From the NCBI GenBank assembly GCA_944376235.1, contig CALWCA010000019.1, positions 1-64,000 on the forward strand: a stretch of DNA of 64,000 nucleotides. Direction: 5' to 3'. Below the pieces are notes generated by a model. That model worked only from the letters and a program-made list of their open reading frames with translations. It was not told the DNA's origin and did not search any database. Positions 881-8,455 of this stretch are shown one piece after another (the stretch's first letter is position 1; every line of letters starts with the position of its first letter). A program made the translations under genes and the position numbers. This DNA comes from an uncultured Clostridia bacterium (GTDB lineage: Bacteria > Bacillota > Clostridia > Oscillospirales > Feifaniaceae).

Positions 881-1902
881 GGCGGGAGATCACGGGAGGC
901 CTCACATGGCGCAGCAGGGTTTTGCTGCTGCTGCTTCCCATGGTGGCCGTGGTGGCGGCTCTGTCCATCGGCCGTGTGGGGGTTCCGGTTTCGTATATTT
1001 TTAATTCGGTGCTCGAAAAGCTGGGCATGCAGGCGGCGGAGCTCATGACGCAGTATGAGTCGGTGCTGTGGAAATTCCGTCTGCCGCGCATCCTGCTCTC
1101 CCTTTTGGTGGGCGCGGGGCTTTCGGTGTCGGGCTGCGCCTTTCAGAGCCTTTTTTCCAACCCGCTTGCCACACCCGACACGCTGGGGGTGGCAAGCGGC
1201 ACCTCCTTTGGCGCCGCGCTGGCCCTTCTGCTGGGCTTTGGGATGCTGGGTGTGCAGGCCATGGCGCTGTGTTTTGGCATTGCGGCGGTGGCGCTGACCT
1301 ACCTGGCGGGCTCGGGCAAGGGCCGCTCCTCCATGGGCATGATGATTTTGTCTGGCATCATGGTGGGCTCGCTCTTTACGGCGCTCATCTCGCTCATCAA
1401 ATTCACCGCGGACACCGAGTCGCAGCTGCCGGTGATCACCTACTGGCTTATGGGCAGCATGAGTGCGGCGGGATATGATTCGCTGCTGCTGGGAGCGCCG
1501 CTCATCGTGCTGGGCATTATGGTGCTCTACCTGCTGCGCTGGCGGCTCAACATTCTGCCCCTGTCAGACGATGAGGCGCGCGCCTCGGGCATGAACGTGA
1601 AGGCCATGCGAATCGTCACGGTGCTGTGCGCCACCGGCATCACCGCCTCCTGCGTGTCCATGTGCGGTCAGGTGGGCTGGGTGGGGCTTTTGGTGCCGCA
1701 CCTGTGCCGCATGCGCTATGGCAGCAATCACTTGGCGCTGGTTCCGTCGTCGGTGTGCGTGGGGGCCGCCTTCATGGTGGCGGTGGACACCATGGCGCGC
1801 AGCGTCTCGGCGGCAGAGCTTCCGCTTTCCATTCTCACGGCCATCATCGGCGCGCCCTTTTTCATCGTTCTCATGCGGCGTTCGGGGGGGTGGCAGATGT
1901 GA
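877..1902 (+). CDS. FecCD-family ABC transporter permease
   Basis: At 341 residues this matches the usual size of a FecCD/BtuC-type permease. Such proteins form the membrane channel for iron-siderophore, heme, cobalamin or related chelates. Family signatures are RLPRILLSLLVGAGLSVSGCAFQ (residues about 68-90, quoted only in part by position), NPLATPDTLGV, and GWVGLLVPHLCR near residue 270. Eight to ten hydrophobic helices are visible. It starts with an ATGA overlap on the preceding small gene and its stop overlaps the ATPase start (GTGA), so the three genes are probably translationally coupled. The substrate cannot be read from the sequence. Iron or a metal-tetrapyrrole complex is a guess supported by the Fur-like operator. 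Confidence 0.9.
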   Translation: MRREITGGLTWRSRVLLLLLPMVAVVAALSIGRVGVPVSYIFNSVLEKLGMQAAELMTQYESVLWKFRLPRILLSLLVGAGLSVSGCAFQSLFSNPLATPDTLGVASGTSFGAALALLLGFGMLGVQAMALCFGIAAVALTYLAGSGKGRSSMGMMILSGIMVGSLFTALISLIKFTADTESQLPVITYWLMGSMSAAGYDSLLLGAPLIVLGIMVLYLLRWRLNILPLSDDEARASGMNVKAMRIVTVLCATGITASCVSMCGQVGWVGLLVPHLCRMRYGSNHLALVPSSVCVGAAFMVAVDTMARSVSAAELPLSILTAIIGAPFFIVLMRRSGGWQM

Positions 1903-3005
1903 AGCTGTCAGTTGAAAATGGGTGCTTTTCCTATCCGCGCGGCGGCAGGGAAGTGCTCAAAAACATCAATTTTTCGGCGCAGGAGGGTGACATGGTGGCT
2001 ATTTTGGGCCCCAACGGCGCCGGAAAGACCACGCTGCTGCGCTGCATCATGGGTTTTTTGCGTTGGAATGCGGGGGCCAGCCTGCTGGACGACAGGGACA
2101 TCCGCGACATCCCTTACCGTGAGTTGTGGCAGACGGTTGCCTATGTGCCGCAGGCACGCGGCGTGGCCTCCTCCAGCACGGCGCTTGAAATGGTGCTGCT
2201 GGGCAGAGGCAGCAGGGTCGGGCTCTTCGCAAAGCCGGGCGCCGCAGACCTCGAAGCGGCGCAGCAGGCCATGCGGCGCCTGCACATTGAGCATTTGGAA
2301 AGCAAGCGCTGCTCCGAGATGTCGGGCGGCGAGCTGCAGATGGTGCTCATCGCCAGGGCGCTGGCCTCCGATCCGCACATCCTCATTCTGGACGAACCCG
2401 AATCAAATCTTGATTTCAAAAATCAGCTTTTGGTGCTCAACGCCATGTCGGAGCTGACGGCGTCCGGCATGACCTGCATTTTCAACACCCACTACCCCGC
2501 CCACGCCCTGCAGCGCGCCGGTAAGGCTCTGCTGCTGTCAAAGGGGGGAGAGAGCCTGTTTGGCCAGACGCACGCCGTGGTGACCGAGCGCAACATTCAA
2601 AAGGCCTTTGGCGTGCGTGCCGTCATCGGGGAGCTGGAGACCCCCTCGAACATGGTGCACGACGTCGTGGCGCTGGAAATCTGCGAGCGCGGGAGCGTTG
2701 AGAGCGACGCAGAGGAGCAGGCGCGGCGCGAGCTGGCGGTGGTCTCGATTATCTCGCAAGATTTTGAAATTTCCTCTCAAATCAATGAGCTGCTGCACGA
2801 GGTTTCACAGCACATCGTCGGCAGGATGGGCATGCCCTACAGGGACATGGGCCTTTATATCATCAACGTGACGCTTGACGCCCCTGCCGGCGTGATGCAG
2901 GCGCTTTGCGCAAAGCTGAATGTGCTGCCGGGGGTGGCGGTGAAGGCGACCTATCCGCGAGAGACCGCGTCCCGGGGCGACGTGCAGCCCAAAAAGGAGG
3001 CGTAA
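1899..3005 (+). CDS. ABC transporter ATPase fused to a C-terminal TM1266-like domain
   Basis: Residues 1-230 are a FecE-type ATPase with Walker A GPNGAGKTT, signature MSGGELQ, and Walker B ILILDEPESNLD. It should energise the FecCD permease encoded just upstream. Residues about 276-356 form a second domain that closely resembles the free protein encoded at 623-880: IVGRMGMPYRDMGLYIINV here against IIGRMGIPYRQRGISIISI there. FecE proteins normally end after about 260 residues, so this extra ACT-like domain is unusual and suggests allosteric control of transport, or docking of the free copy. The start is GTG 1899, overlapping the permease stop. Gene order and overlap put it firmly in the nitrogenase-like operon. 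Confidence 0.88.
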   Translation: MKLSVENGCFSYPRGGREVLKNINFSAQEGDMVAILGPNGAGKTTLLRCIMGFLRWNAGASLLDDRDIRDIPYRELWQTVAYVPQARGVASSSTALEMVLLGRGSRVGLFAKPGAADLEAAQQAMRRLHIEHLESKRCSEMSGGELQMVLIARALASDPHILILDEPESNLDFKNQLLVLNAMSELTASGMTCIFNTHYPAHALQRAGKALLLSKGGESLFGQTHAVVTERNIQKAFGVRAVIGELETPSNMVHDVVALEICERGSVESDAEEQARRELAVVSIISQDFEISSQINELLHEVSQHIVGRMGMPYRDMGLYIINVTLDAPAGVMQALCAKLNVLPGVAVKATYPRETASRGDVQPKKEA

Positions 3006-3008
3006 ACG

Positions 3009-4061
3009 GTGACAAATATCGAGCTCATTCAAATGCTCAAACAGCAAAAGCATCTGACCTTTGAACAGTGGACCCAGCTAATTGGAACCTTTACGGAGCG
3101 TGAGCAGGCCTATGCGGCCGATTTGGCCAGGGAGATTTCGCTGGCCCGCTTCGGCAACAAAATTTTCTTTCGCGGCATCATCGAATTTACCAACTACTGC
3201 AAAAACGACTGTCTTTACTGCGGCATCCGAAGGAGCAGCGGCGCCAGCCGCTACCGTCTGAGCAAGGAGGACATCCTGCTGAGCTGTGAAGACGGCTACC
3301 GTGCAGGATTCCGTACCTTTGTGCTGCAGGGCGGGGAGGACCCTTGGTTTAGCGATGAGCGCATGGAGGAGATCGTAAAAGCCATCCGGGAAGGGTATCC
3401 CGACTGCGCCATCACGCTGTCGCTGGGCGAGCGAAGCAGGGAGTCCTACCAAAGGCTGTTTGACGCCGGGGCCGACCGCTATCTGCTGCGCCACGAAACG
3501 GCCGACAAGCAGCACTACGAGTCGCTGCACCCGCCGGAGATTTCCTTTGAAAACCGCATGCGCTGCCTATATGACCTGCGCGACATCGGCTATCAGACGG
3601 GCTGCGGCATGATGGTGGGCACGCCGGGGCAGCGCCCCGAGCACCTGGCGCGCGACATGCTCTTCATGTGCGGCTTTCGGCCCCAGATGATTGGGACAGG
3701 TCCATTTTTGCCCCACCACGACACGCCCTTTCGCAATGAGCCGGCCGGCAGCGCCGATGTGACGCTCATGCTGATGTCGCTGTGCCGCATCATGCTGCCC
3801 GACGTGCTGCTGCCCGCCACCACAGCGCTGGGCACACTGGACGGAGAGGGCCGCAAGCGCGGCGTTTTGGCGGGGGCAAACGTGATCATGCCCAATCTGT
3901 CGCCGCTTGCGGTGCGCGAGAAGTATATGCTGTATGACGGCAAGTCCATTTCAGGGGACGACGCCGGGGAGAGTCTTGACATTCTGCGGCGGCACATGCA
4001 GGAAATCGGCTATGAGCTGCAGGTGGGCCGGGGAGACTACAAGGAGGGAACGGACAAATGA
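3009..4061 (+). CDS. HydE-like radical SAM enzyme
   Basis: This 350-residue protein has the HydE form of the radical SAM motif, CX3CX2C (Cys64, Cys68, Cys71, in TNYCKNDCLYCGIR), at almost the same positions as in Thermotoga HydE. Typical flanks are present (GNKIFFRGIIEF before, SRYRLSKEDILLSCE after), as are LQGGED and MVGTPGQRPEHLARD. HydE acts in assembly of the hydrogenase H-cluster di-iron site, and relatives include PylB and BioB. The C-terminal third has no cysteines, so the accessory cluster of some HydE proteins is absent. No hydF, hydG or hydrogenase gene is in the window. A role in making or modifying a cofactor for the adjoining NifDK-like complex is my inference. It has a GTG start with AAGGAGG upstream, and ends in an ATGA overlap. 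Confidence 0.85.
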   Translation: MTNIELIQMLKQQKHLTFEQWTQLIGTFTEREQAYAADLAREISLARFGNKIFFRGIIEFTNYCKNDCLYCGIRRSSGASRYRLSKEDILLSCEDGYRAGFRTFVLQGGEDPWFSDERMEEIVKAIREGYPDCAITLSLGERSRESYQRLFDAGADRYLLRHETADKQHYESLHPPEISFENRMRCLYDLRDIGYQTGCGMMVGTPGQRPEHLARDMLFMCGFRPQMIGTGPFLPHHDTPFRNEPAGSADVTLMLMSLCRIMLPDVLLPATTALGTLDGEGRKRGVLAGANVIMPNLSPLAVREKYMLYDGKSISGDDAGESLDILRRHMQEIGYELQVGRGDYKEGTDK

Positions 4062-4828
4062 TGAAAATTGCCGTTTACGGTAAGGGCGGCATTGGAAAGT
4101 CGACCACGGTGTCAAACGTGGCGGCGGCCCTTGCCGGTCAGGGGCTGCGGGTGATGCAGATTGGCTGCGACCCCAAGGCCGACTCCACCACCATGCTGCA
4201 CGGGGGGACGAGAATCCCCACCGTGCTCGACCTGGTGCGCGAGCGTAAGGACGATTTTTCACTGGAGGAGATGGTGGTGCAGGGCTTTGGCGGCGTCATC
4301 TGCGTCGAGGCCGGCGGGCCCACGCCGGGGCTGGGCTGTGCCGGGCGCGGCATCGTGGCGGCGCTGGACAAGCTGGCAGAAAAGGGGGCCTATGAGGTCT
4401 ACAAGCCCGACCTTGTCATTTACGACGTCCTGGGCGACGTGGTGTGCGGCGGTTTTTCCATGCCCATGCGCCAGGGCTATGCCGACAAGGTGTTTGTGGT
4501 GACGTCGGGCGAGAACATGGCCATTTACGCGGCCGCCAACATCGCCACGGCCGTTGAGAATTTCCGAGACAGGGGGTATGCTTCTCTGGGCGGGCTGATT
4601 CTCAACCGCCGCAATGTAAAAAACGAGCAGCAGAAGGTGGAGGAGCTGGCGCAGGAGCTGGGGACCGATATCGTGGGCACGCTGGATCACAGCGACCTGG
4701 TGACGCAGGCCGAGGAGCTTGGGAAGACGGTGCTCGAGGCCTTTCCCGGCTCCGATATGGCGCAGCAATACCGCGACCTGGCAAACAGCCTCTTGCAGGC
4801 CTGCCGAAAAGGAGGGGACAAGGGGTGA
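4058..4828 (+). CDS. NifH-like (nitrogenase-family) reductase
   Basis: The 256-residue protein has the full set of NifH/BchL/CfbC features. These are P-loop GKGGIGKS (8-15), QIGCDPKADST (34-44), and both ligands for the bridging [4Fe-4S] cluster: Cys94 in GPTPGLGCAGRG and Cys130 in DVLGDVVCGGF. It should be a homodimeric ATP-driven electron donor to the NifDK-like pair encoded next. At about 256 residues it is shorter than classical NifH (280-295). Gene context without nifB, nifE, nifN or nifV argues against nitrogen fixation. It overlaps hydE-like (ATGA) upstream and the next gene (GTGA) downstream. Confidence 0.93.
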   Translation: MMKIAVYGKGGIGKSTTVSNVAAALAGQGLRVMQIGCDPKADSTTMLHGGTRIPTVLDLVRERKDDFSLEEMVVQGFGGVICVEAGGPTPGLGCAGRGIVAALDKLAEKGAYEVYKPDLVIYDVLGDVVCGGFSMPMRQGYADKVFVVTSGENMAIYAAANIATAVENFRDRGYASLGGLILNRRNVKNEQQKVEELAQELGTDIVGTLDHSDLVTQAEELGKTVLEAFPGSDMAQQYRDLANSLLQACRKGGDKG

Positions 4829-6150
4829 AAAATCTGAGAGCCGGAGCCGTTCTCGACAGCACGCAGGCCACCATTGCCGAGGCCGCCTTCCCTGTTCCCT
4901 TTGCGCAGGGGCTGGAATACGGCACGCCGGCCAGGGGCACTTGGAACATCGTCCATACGGGCATGCTGATTCCGCAGGCACATCAGATTTTCGTGTGCGC
5001 GGCGGGCTGCCTGCGCGGCGTGGTGCTCACGGCGGCCGAGATGGGGCTGGAAGAGCGCTTTTCCACGGTGGAAATTAGAGAAAACAACCTGCTCGACGGG
5101 GACATGGAGGAGCTCATCATCGAGGGCGTGAGCGACATTTTGCAGCGCCTGCCCCAGATGCCGCCTGCCGTGTTGATTTACACGAGCTGCATCCACCATT
5201 TCCTGGCCTGCGACCTCGACCGCGTATACGATATTTTGCGTCAGCGCTTTCCCCATGTCGGCTTTGCGCAGTGCTATATGAACCCCATCATGCGAAAGAG
5301 CGGGCTGACGCCCGATCAGCTCATGCGGCATGGGCTTTATTCGCTGCTTGAGCCCTGCCCGCTCAATGAAAAGTCGGTCAGCATTCTAGGAAACGACCTG
5401 CCCACCGACGAGAGCAGCGAGCTGTATCAGATCCTGTCGGAGGAGGGCTTTACCATTCGCGACATCACGCGCTGCAGGGATTACGCTGAGTATCAGCAGA
5501 TGGCGCAAAGCGCCCTGGCGCTGACTTACAACCCGGCCGCCATTCCGGCGGGAGAGTTTGTGCAGCAGCATCTTGGGGCAAAGCACCTTTACCTGCCGCT
5601 CTCCTATGACTTTGACGCCATTGCGGCGGGCTATGACGCCCTGTGCGATACGCTGGGAATTGCACGCCGCGACTTTTCGAAGCAGCGCGAGCGCGCCGAC
5701 GCCGCACTGCGTCATGCCCGGCATCTCATCGGGGACACGCCCGTCGAAATAGACTATACGCTGACCTTCAAGCCGCTCGGGCTCGCGCGCCTTTTGCTGT
5801 CCTACGGCTTTCGCGTGACCACGATGTATGCCGACGCCTTTTTGGGCGAGGAACGGCAGGATTTTGAGGCTCTGCGCGAAACGGCTCCCGATCTGCTGCT
5901 GCGTCCCACCATCCATGCCGGGATGCGCTTCGCTTCGCGCGAGAGAGAGCAGAAGGTGCTGGCGCTGGGACAGAAGGCGGCCTACTTTGCCGGCACGCCC
6001 CACTTTGTCAACGTGGTGGAGTGCGGCGGCATGTTCGGCTTTGACGGCATCTGCCGCCTGGCAAAGCTGATGGAAGAGGCCTTCTGCGAGGAAAAGGACA
6101 CCAAAGCGCTCATTCAAATCAAGGGATTGGGGTGTGGATGCTGCTCATGA
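4825..6150 (+). CDS. NifD/NifE-like nitrogenase component 1 subunit
   Basis: A 441-residue member of the nitrogenase component 1 family. Near the N-terminus Cys58 and Cys62 (FVCAAGCLRG) and then Cys122 (YTSCIHHF) are candidate metal-cluster ligands. The central pattern YLPLSYDFDAI and the later FAGTPHFVNVVECGGMFGFDG fit the family's Rossmann-like domains. The protein ends in an unusual cysteine-rich tail, GLGCGCCS (Cys437, 439, 440). It should pair with the product of the next gene and receive electrons from the NifH-like protein. It starts with GTG overlapping the nifH-like stop. The substrate is unknown. Divergence from NifD, ChlN/BchN and CfbD places it, as far as I can judge by eye, among the uncharacterised group IV-type nitrogenase homologues. 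Confidence 0.85.
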   Translation: MKNLRAGAVLDSTQATIAEAAFPVPFAQGLEYGTPARGTWNIVHTGMLIPQAHQIFVCAAGCLRGVVLTAAEMGLEERFSTVEIRENNLLDGDMEELIIEGVSDILQRLPQMPPAVLIYTSCIHHFLACDLDRVYDILRQRFPHVGFAQCYMNPIMRKSGLTPDQLMRHGLYSLLEPCPLNEKSVSILGNDLPTDESSELYQILSEEGFTIRDITRCRDYAEYQQMAQSALALTYNPAAIPAGEFVQQHLGAKHLYLPLSYDFDAIAAGYDALCDTLGIARRDFSKQRERADAALRHARHLIGDTPVEIDYTLTFKPLGLARLLLSYGFRVTTMYADAFLGEERQDFEALRETAPDLLLRPTIHAGMRFASREREQKVLALGQKAAYFAGTPHFVNVVECGGMFGFDGICRLAKLMEEAFCEEKDTKALIQIKGLGCGCCS

Positions 6151-7286
6151 AACAGACTGCGAGAATTATCTCTACCTACGCGGCCGACGTGTCGGGCGTG
6201 TGCTCCGCGCTTTACGAGCTGGGGGGTATGACCGTCATGCACGACGCCTCGGGCTGCAACTCCACCTACAACACCCATGACGAGCCGCGCTGGTACGACA
6301 TGGACAGTATGGTTTACATTTCGGCGCTCTCCGAAATGGAGGCCGTCATGGGAGACGATGAAAAGCTGGTGGGAGACATCGTCTCGGTGGCGAAGGAGCT
6401 GAACCCCAAATTCATCGCCGTGGCGGGCACTCCCATTCCTATGGTCATCGGCACCGATTTTGCCGCCGTAGCGTCCATGATTGAAAAACGGAGCGGCATT
6501 CCGACCATGGGCTTTTCCACAAACGGCATGCACTCCTATTTGAGCGGGGCCTCTATGGCCTTTGCCGGGCTGGCACGCCGCTTCTGCCTAGGAGAGACCG
6601 AAAAGACAGAGGCGTTAGGCGCCAACATTCTGGGGCTGACTCCCCTTGACTTCTCCGTCAACGGCAGCGCACAGGACATAAAAGCCCTGCTGGAGCAAAA
6701 CGGCATCGAGGTGGTTTCATCCTGGGCCATGGGCAGCTCGCTTGAGCAGCTCGAGCGGGCGGGAGCGGCGCATGTCAACCTGGTGGTTTCCTATGCAGGC
6801 CTTGAAACGGCAAAACTGCTGAAGGAGCGCTTCGGCACGCCCTATGTGGCGGGCGTGCCGGTAGGCAGGGAATTTTCAAGCCTGGTGGTGCAGAGGCTGT
6901 ACAGTGCGGCAAGGACGGAGGAGAACGCGGTTGCCTACCCCAAGAAGGCACGCGGGCACTTTGACGGCGTCATCATCGGGGAGAGCGTCATGGCGCACTC
7001 GCTGGCGGCTGCCGCCTTGCTGGAGCAAGGGAAAAACCTGCGTGTTCTCTGCCCACTGGAGGCGGAAAAGGAGCTGCTGGGCGCCGACAGCCTGCACGTT
7101 CATGACGAGACCGACATCGCCGAATGCCTGGCCGGCGAGCGCCTCATTGTCGCCGACCCGCTTTACAAACCCATTTGTCCCAAAGACGCGGTATTTGTAC
7201 CGCTTGCACATGAGGCTTTTTCCGGCCGTATTTTCAGACGCGATATTCCAGACCTGATTGGACGCGGACTGAACTCCCTGTTTTAA
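6147..7286 (+). CDS. NifK/NifN-like nitrogenase component 1 subunit
   Basis: 379 residues from ATG 6147, which overlaps the previous stop (ATGA). An upstream in-frame GTG at 6132 is less likely. N-terminal GVCSALYELGG (Cys19) and ASGCNSTYNTHDEPRW (Cys37) are typical of component 1 family members. The third cysteine expected further on (as in the STC-x-IGDD region of NifK) is replaced: the sequence reads AVAGTPIPMVIGTDF. So any cluster shared with the partner subunit would be coordinated asymmetrically. The protein is short compared with NifK (about 520), as in other nitrogenase-like reductases. It probably forms a heterotetramer with the upstream product. Confidence 0.83.
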   Translation: MKQTARIISTYAADVSGVCSALYELGGMTVMHDASGCNSTYNTHDEPRWYDMDSMVYISALSEMEAVMGDDEKLVGDIVSVAKELNPKFIAVAGTPIPMVIGTDFAAVASMIEKRSGIPTMGFSTNGMHSYLSGASMAFAGLARRFCLGETEKTEALGANILGLTPLDFSVNGSAQDIKALLEQNGIEVVSSWAMGSSLEQLERAGAAHVNLVVSYAGLETAKLLKERFGTPYVAGVPVGREFSSLVVQRLYSAARTEENAVAYPKKARGHFDGVIIGESVMAHSLAAAALLEQGKNLRVLCPLEAEKELLGADSLHVHDETDIAECLAGERLIVADPLYKPICPKDAVFVPLAHEAFSGRIFRRDIPDLIGRGLNSLF

Positions 7287-7318: not shown

Positions 7319-8455
7319 ATGAAAAAGACAATTTCCCTGCTTTTGGCCCTGCTCTTTCTGCTGTCGGCAGCCGGCTGCTCCAACACGCAGGACGACACCC
7401 AGGACCCCGGCGAAACCCAGCAAACTCCCGATACGATCACCGTGACCGATCACCTTGACAAGCAGGTCACGGTTCCCGCAGATATTGAGCGCATTGCGGT
7501 GGTGGGCGTGTGGCCCCTGCCTTCGGTGCTGACCATTTTCTTCAATTCGGCCGAAAAGATTGTCGGCATGCCCGAGGCCAGCCTGACGGCTGCGCAAAAC
7601 GGGCTGCTCGGCGAGCTCTATCCCGAGATTCTCAACGCCAAGACCGATTTCATCAACGGCGACGACGTCAACCTCGAAGAGCTGATGCTGCTCGAGCCCG
7701 ACGTGGTGTTCTACAACGCGGCAAATCCCGCCGTCGGTGAGAAGCTGACCAACGCAGGGTTTGCGGCGGTGGCGGTGTCGGTCAACAAGTGGGATTACGA
7801 CTGCATTGAGACGCTCAACAACTGGATTGAGCTCTTCTCCGCCATGTTCCCCAAGGACGCCAAGAGCGATGCCGTTGAGAAATATTCCAACGAGGTCTAC
7901 GACCTCATCAGCGAGCGCGTCTCCACCCTTTCGGATGAGCAGCGCGCCAGGGTTTTCTTCATCTACCAGTACACCGACACGATGCTGGCCTCTTCGGGCG
8001 CAAAATTCTTCGGTCAGTGGTGGTGTGATGCGGTGGGCGCCGTCAATGTGGCGCAGGAGCTGACCACCGACAACTCGGTGGAGGTCAATATGGAACAGGT
8101 CTATGCCTGGAACCCCGACACCATCGTCGTGACCAATTTTACGGCCGCTCAGCCCGAAGACCTCATGAACAACACCATCGGCAACTATGACTGGAGCACG
8201 GTGGCGGCCATCCAGAACGGGCGGGTCTTCAAAATGCCGCTTGGCATGTACCGCAGCTATACGCCGGGCGCCGACACGCCGGTCACGCTGCTGTGGCTGG
8301 CCAAGAGCGTCTACCCCGAGCTCTTTGAAGATATCGACATCACCGAGCGCGCCCGCAGCTACTACAAGGACGTGTTCGGCGTGGAGCTGACCGACGAGCA
8401 GATTGCCTCCATTTTCACTCCCACCTCCGCTGCGGCGGGCGGCGCGGGAGCATAA
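7319..8455 (+). CDS. FecB/BtuF-like substrate-binding lipoprotein
   Basis: This 378-residue protein begins with a lipoprotein signal peptide ending LLSAAGC, with lipidated Cys20, followed by a charged linker. The mature part has the class III binding protein layout: VTDHLDKQVTVPADIERIAVVG at the start, NLEELMLLEPDVVFYN, and VNMEQVYAWNPDTIVVTNF. This is typical of proteins binding iron complexes, heme, cobalamin or molybdate and delivering them to FecCD permeases. It is the last gene of the operon, 32 bases after the NifK-like gene with AAAGGAAG before ATG. It presumably serves the permease and ATPase encoded at 877-3005. A shared terminator follows. Confidence 0.9.
   Translation: MKKTISLLLALLFLLSAAGCSNTQDDTQDPGETQQTPDTITVTDHLDKQVTVPADIERIAVVGVWPLPSVLTIFFNSAEKIVGMPEASLTAAQNGLLGELYPEILNAKTDFINGDDVNLEELMLLEPDVVFYNAANPAVGEKLTNAGFAAVAVSVNKWDYDCIETLNNWIELFSAMFPKDAKSDAVEKYSNEVYDLISERVSTLSDEQRARVFFIYQYTDTMLASSGAKFFGQWWCDAVGAVNVAQELTTDNSVEVNMEQVYAWNPDTIVVTNFTAAQPEDLMNNTIGNYDWSTVAAIQNGRVFKMPLGMYRSYTPGADTPVTLLWLAKSVYPELFEDIDITERARSYYKDVFGVELTDEQIASIFTPTSAAAGGAGA

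Follow-up and report, generated by a model that had tools for sequence, protein, structure and literature searches.

In [FeFe]-hydrogenase maturation by HydE, HydF and HydG, the CO and CN- ligands of the H-cluster are generally attributed to HydG. It makes both from tyrosine and passes an Fe(CO)2(CN)-cysteine unit to HydE. In the HypCDEF pathway of [NiFe]-hydrogenase, HypF, HypC, HypD and HypE draw on carbamoyl phosphate for the CN- that they attach to iron, and the cysteine of the HypE C-terminal PRIC is the cyanide carrier. Among the targets of nitrogenase-like enzymes are tetrapyrroles and C-S bonds, and FecCD importers transport haem and corrinoids.

A survey of eight gas-fermenting clostridia left HydG undetected in five (PMC9431212). 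HydE and HydF were present without HydG in C. ljungdahlii, C. carboxidivorans, C. ragsdalei, C. coskatii, and C. sp. AWRP. HypCDEF was found, but no HypAB, in C. autoethanogenum, C. ljungdahlii, C. coskatii, C. sp. AWRP, and C. ragsdalei. The full set of six Hyp genes is found in C. carboxidivorans, and the authors had no straightforward explanation for either gap.

We analyzed a window of 64,000 nucleotides from an uncultured Clostridia bacterium. The operon comprises eight genes, all on the forward strand and with mostly overlapping ends. The features are as follows.

410-438, forward: putative sigma-70-like promoter, TTGACA-17-TATAGT, read from the sequence
443-494, forward: conserved leader RNA motif, CUGA-NNNN-RAAA ... 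UUGA-NNNN-RAAG (covariance model R1, 57.4 bits, by construction)
557-586, forward: terminator-like hairpin and T-run, downstream of the leader motif and ahead of the first gene
623-880, forward: free TM1266-family protein, 85 aa (PF21699, 4.6e-33; TIGR03959, 118.9 bits, cut-off 60.8)
877-1902, forward: FecCD/BtuC-type ABC permease (PF01032, 6.3e-83)
1899-3005, forward: ABC ATPase with C-terminal TM1266 domain, GTG start, 368 aa (ABC_tran at residues 20-167, 1.9e-32)
2733-2948, forward: fused TM1266 domain, residues 279-350 (PF21699, 64.5 bits; 2NZC, 8.8e-8)
3009-4061, forward: HydE, radical SAM H-cluster maturase (TIGR03956, 524.6 bits, cut-off 254.6)
4058-4828, forward: NifH-like ATP-dependent reductase, NifH-A (PF00142, 1.7e-90)
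4825-6150, forward: NifD-like subunit, NifD-A (PF00148, 2.7e-12)
6132-7286, forward: NifK-like subunit, NifK-A (PF00148, 6.5e-33)
7319-8455, forward: substrate-binding lipoprotein of the importer (PF01497, 1.2e-14; Cys20 in 97%)

The permease, the ATPase and the Peripla_BP_2 binding protein, encoded in one operon, identify a FecCD/BtuCD-type importer. A 5S rRNA gene lies at 9-125 of the window, and the operon starts about 500 bases later.

The preliminary description had read the 1899-3005 gene as an ABC ATPase fused to a TM1266-type domain with a free copy two genes upstream, and both parts were confirmed. The fused domain exceeds the cut-offs of PF21699 (27; E-value 8.7e-18) and TIGR03959 (73.7 bits), which makes it a TM1266 family member. 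By BLASTP, it shares 41% identity and 68% positives with the free copy over 74 residues (5e-20), and the free copy also matches 2NZC (4.4e-12), a solved protein that we take to be T. maritima TM1266. In the AlphaFold2 model of the whole protein (mean pLDDT 87.8), a normal ATPase precedes the TM1266-type domain, and residues 277-351 are predicted to fold as strand-helix-strand-strand-helix-strand (block-mean pLDDT 84-93). This topology, together with the 2NZC match, supports the likeness to TM1266; the fold assignment is based on sequence and predicted topology. The Foldseek matches of the fused model were dominated by the ATPase domain, and the structure search related the importer ATPase to haem and metal-chelate ATPases.

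A sequencing error truncating the ATPase frame before the C-terminal region was ruled out since the fusion is conserved across homologues. It recurs in 50 of the 60 intact cluster ATPases, these 50 being 51-60% identical homologues, and the same fusion is found in a 97%-identical congener (L047) and in three genomes of another family (51-54% identity). The Walker, signature and switch residues are invariant across 36 fused homologues, so the window ATPase should be active. The description of the TM1266/TIGR03959 family does not include an ABC ATPase fusion, although the free copy and the fused domain are both members.

In the methionine importer MetNI, too, the ABC ATPase ends in a regulatory domain of ferredoxin-like fold. 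In MetN, a domain of this general fold mediates trans-inhibition by methionine; the window's domain, however, is TM1266-type and its transporter FecCD-type. By this analogy, the fused domain probably regulates the importer, and two copies on the ATPase dimer would be well placed for gating import. Sensing of the imported cofactor by this domain, with control of transport, is plausible, as had been suggested before along with a possible pairing of the free copy with the fused one; that earlier interpretation captured the fusion, the hydrogenase-system link and the place in a metal-chelate importer, but missed the operon-wide part in H-cluster maturation proposed below. The domain could instead be a structural or dimerization module of the ATPase with no ligand sensing, which we regard as the weaker possibility. 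The module is missing from the other 10 of the 60 intact cluster ATPases, so transport has no need of it; yet G308-R309-M310 and the family signature are kept across 36 diverse fusions, which speaks against a purely structural part.

Free TM1266 copies occur in most importer clusters, in some of the type II clusters described below, and at other Clostridia loci. They are also found beside unfused ATPases (L049, L050) and in clusters with no ABC transporter (L165, L167), so the free copy has to serve a separate role. In the window genome, a third TM1266-like ORF with a weak score (27.6 bits, below the cut-off) lies upstream of a flavodoxin-like reductase (L003, G000:C20:14829-15062).

Compared with HydEFG maturation, the system shares HydE, HydF, a TM1266 protein and a common leader RNA motif, and in relatives of the window genome also a hydrogenase with H-cluster motifs. 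However, most cluster carriers lack HydG and have a NifHDK-like reductase plus an importer or Hyp genes instead. In a sample of 295 genomes from the order, operon carriers were defined by NifD-A at no less than 43% identity (n=10). Each of the ten carries one HydE and a HydF over the cut-off (544-574 bits), and none carries a HydG over the cut-off. In the window genome, the operon HydE is the sole HydE, HydF at G000:C3 scores 548 bits against 325.6, and the search for HydG gave no match. Among the 130 HydE genomes of the sample, HydG was present in 117 of the 120 without the operon. None of these 117 has a true NifD-A, and one (G556) has a 32% paralogue. The 13 HydE genomes without HydG comprise the ten carriers, G334, G454 (weak HydE, no HydF), and G418 (76% complete). 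G334 is 99% complete and has HydE and HydF (L083, G334:C65) with neither HydG nor the cluster, which counts against a HydG-independent reading of the cluster. The Fisher test of cluster against HydG, which ignores phylogeny, resulted in 1e-12 by genome and 3e-7 by genus. The ten carriers span six genera and four families, and all four families include HydG-bearing relatives.

Beyond these ten, we surveyed 48 more carriers, most of them Clostridia: HydG is missing from 39, complete in eight, and a fragment in one. The eight demonstrate that the cluster and HydG can coexist. HydG replacement is thus the rule, and coexistence occurs. Many carriers are metagenome-assembled genomes and the evidence throughout is comparative genomics, and the HydG-less species might possess an unrecognized HydG. 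In G664, G228, and G576, HydF lies within the cluster. The cluster HydE was compared with 19 canonical HydEs, of which 18 come from genomes that also encode a full HydG, and has lost no catalytic residue. On this ground we rejected a HydE that has diverged towards a new active site; HydE probably performs its usual step on its usual substrate, in which case the upstream parts must deliver an Fe(CO)x(CN) unit.

The presumed target of such maturation is present in the carriers. Searches for [FeFe]-hydrogenase genes were positive in 11 of 12 and in 40 of 42 carrier genomes; the search of the 42 gave no hydrogenase match in G520 or in the genome of L105. The H-cluster motifs are kept in all 30 retrieved loci, those of the congener G405 and 29 others. 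The case is weaker for the window genome, which is 93% complete: its sole [FeFe]-hydrogenase match is without the L2 motif, and the congener has a complete one. Most carrier hydrogenases (L074, L178-L207) read TSCSPGW rather than TSCCPxW in the first H-cluster motif, with Ser for the proton-relay Cys.

The NifD-A genome scan returned 503 relatives, from which 80 loci were kept. Mapping of 89 loci resulted in 71 with an ABC importer (type I, as in the window), 12 with a second, diverged NifHDK set (B) and no importer (type II), none with both, and six of undecided type. In type II, HypF-HypC-HypD-HypE lie between the two NifHDK-like sets (L123, L104, L139, L165, L167, and seven others), with profile scores over the cut-offs for HypF (772 against 466 bits), HypD (392 against 193), and HypE (417 against 252); HypC is also present, and HypE ends in PRIC. 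The cyanide carrier cysteine of the HypCDEF pathway is therefore intact, whereas the location of the Hyp genes between NifHDK-like sets, in HydE/HydF genomes, sets type II apart from that pathway. HypD occurs in all 12 type II genomes versus 2 of 45 type I genomes, and is missing from the window's genome. The two type I HypD genes are both outside the cluster and count against the HydG-independent reading. That the importer and the Hyp and NifHDK-B genes exclude each other suggests an importer that provides the product of Hyp and NifHDK-B; type II is likely the biosynthetic equivalent of the cluster in the window.

We consider it probable, on the basis of sequence comparison, that the operon is a HydG-independent [FeFe]-hydrogenase maturation module in which NifHDK-A replaces HydG and the importer provides a precursor equivalent to the product of Hyp and NifHDK-B. 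From the fusion, the operon, the co-occurrence, the exclusivity of Hyp and importer, and the intact hydrogenase motifs in relatives, we infer the substrate, the chemistry and the direction of regulation as follows. HydE and HydF would be retained, and the ATP-dependent set A would act in place of HydG, converting the precursor into the unit taken up by HydE. In type I, the FecCD-type importer and its binding lipoprotein would deliver the precursor. In type II, HypF-C-D-E and set B stand where the importer would be; the compound brought in is therefore probably the chemical equivalent of their product. The CN- of type II would come from carbamoyl phosphate via HypF and HypE, and its two NifHDK-like enzymes may perform ATP-driven reductions, possibly with CO formation too. 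On this scheme, the imported compound would probably be an iron cyano/carbonyl species or something that supplies its ligands; taken by itself, the idea that the type I importer takes up such an iron compound, or a different ligand source, from outside is put forward tentatively. The TM1266 domain of the ATPase would probably signal the state of the supply line to the importer, much as MetN's C-terminal domain does with methionine.

The assignment of set A bears on the alternatives. In the equivalog profile search, NifH-A was below the cut-offs of NifH, CfbC, BchL, and BchX, and NifD-A and NifK-A were far below every named family cut-off, so that those of nifH, nifD, and nifK were all missed, as were the CfbCD, DPOR, and COR cut-offs. 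Among 84 sequences, the NifH-like protein keeps the P-loop G8-T16 and the cluster cysteines C94 and C130 invariant. The invariant cysteines of the other subunits are C58, C62, and C122 in NifD-A and only C42 in NifK-A; this 3 + 1 pattern would suggest a single shared Fe-S cluster rather than the nitrogenase P-cluster. In fold, the NifD-A model is about equally close to NifEN, VnfDK (V-nitrogenase), and DPOR, with Z about 23. The enzyme thus resembles DPOR, CfbCD, NifEN, and methylthio-alkane reductase in its NifH-like reductase and NifDK-type fold, but differs from them in scoring under all family cut-offs and in the 3 + 1 invariant cysteines. Homology to NifH, NifD, and NifK would also fit a true diazotrophic nitrogenase. 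This was rejected, and we give it next to no probability, because all three subunits miss the nitrogenase cut-offs and NifK-A, with one invariant cysteine, is without the standard six-Cys P-cluster. Another nitrogenase-like subfamily (L056, 6867-13084; L057, 8342-11324) has a NifD about 27-32% identical to NifD-A; at L056 it comes with a separate FecCD importer and binding protein, and the genome there has a normal HydG.

A NifHDK-like enzyme with its own imported substrate, a tetrapyrrole or an organosulfur compound, would make HydE a borrowed gene and the hydrogenase link incidental. The known substrates of nitrogenase-like enzymes and the cargo of FecCD importers fit such compounds, the importer ATPase is akin to haem and metal-chelate ATPases, and several type I clusters are without a local HydE. 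We nevertheless judge this unlikely, since the cluster HydE is the only HydE in these genomes and HydG has been lost, HydF is present in all of them and lies within three of the clusters, the TM1266 family belongs to hydrogenase systems, and the importer gives way to Hyp genes in type II. Similarly improbable is an importer that brings iron or haem only, with NifH or NifHDK making CO from CO2 and an unrecognized enzyme making CN- in type I. The usual role of the FecCD family agrees with it, and nitrogenase Fe proteins do reduce CO2 to CO, but it leaves unexplained why the importer never occurs together with Hyp and NifHDK-B.

The leader RNA connects these clusters with canonical maturation genes. 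With the covariance model, the motif was found before about 40 clusters and before canonical TM1266, hydE, and hydG genes (L004, L008, L009, L010, L173, L210, and L217). Two tandem G-A steps flank a covarying 4-bp helix (P1), followed by a terminator hairpin (443-586 in the window). The inner helix has 26 double changes versus 9 expected by shuffling, and its 100% pairing is circular, as pairing was required in the selection; in the unselected scan, all four helix positions were paired in 32 of 45 distinct motifs. Terminator-like hairpins occur in 25 of 66 leaders versus 7 of 177 control stretches. A comparison with Rfam 15 gave no match over the gathering score. The leader is a candidate riboswitch or antiterminator, and a candidate new riboswitch class for hydrogenase maturation. 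At L099 and L137, the motif is in tandem, with two copies about 400 bases apart.

The gene cluster is widespread and apparently absent from the literature. In the open-access literature, we found no paper that links nitrogenase-like genes with HydG loss, and an earlier description elsewhere is possible; nitrogenase-like and HydG genes go unmentioned within the main text of the TraDIS paper (PMC9004356). Our genome search placed a type II cluster in C. ljungdahlii, C. carboxidivorans, and C. ragsdalei, all three without HydG, and the cluster together with HydG in C. drakei, which agrees with the table of PMC9431212. The cluster is one possible explanation for both gaps, HydG and HypAB, in C. 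ljungdahlii and C. ragsdalei, and for the missing HydG of C. carboxidivorans.

The cluster provides a candidate function for a sizeable set of nitrogenase-like enzymes that this analysis assigned to no family (503 matches in a single genome scan), and through it the role of TM1266 becomes testable. More speculatively, many anaerobes may possess a second H-cluster pathway, in which cyanide placed on iron by Hyp proteins would pass through two nitrogenase-like enzymes to HydE and HydF, whereas importer types would scavenge an Fe-CN/CO precursor through a TM1266-regulated transporter, a precursor that gut bacteria may share.
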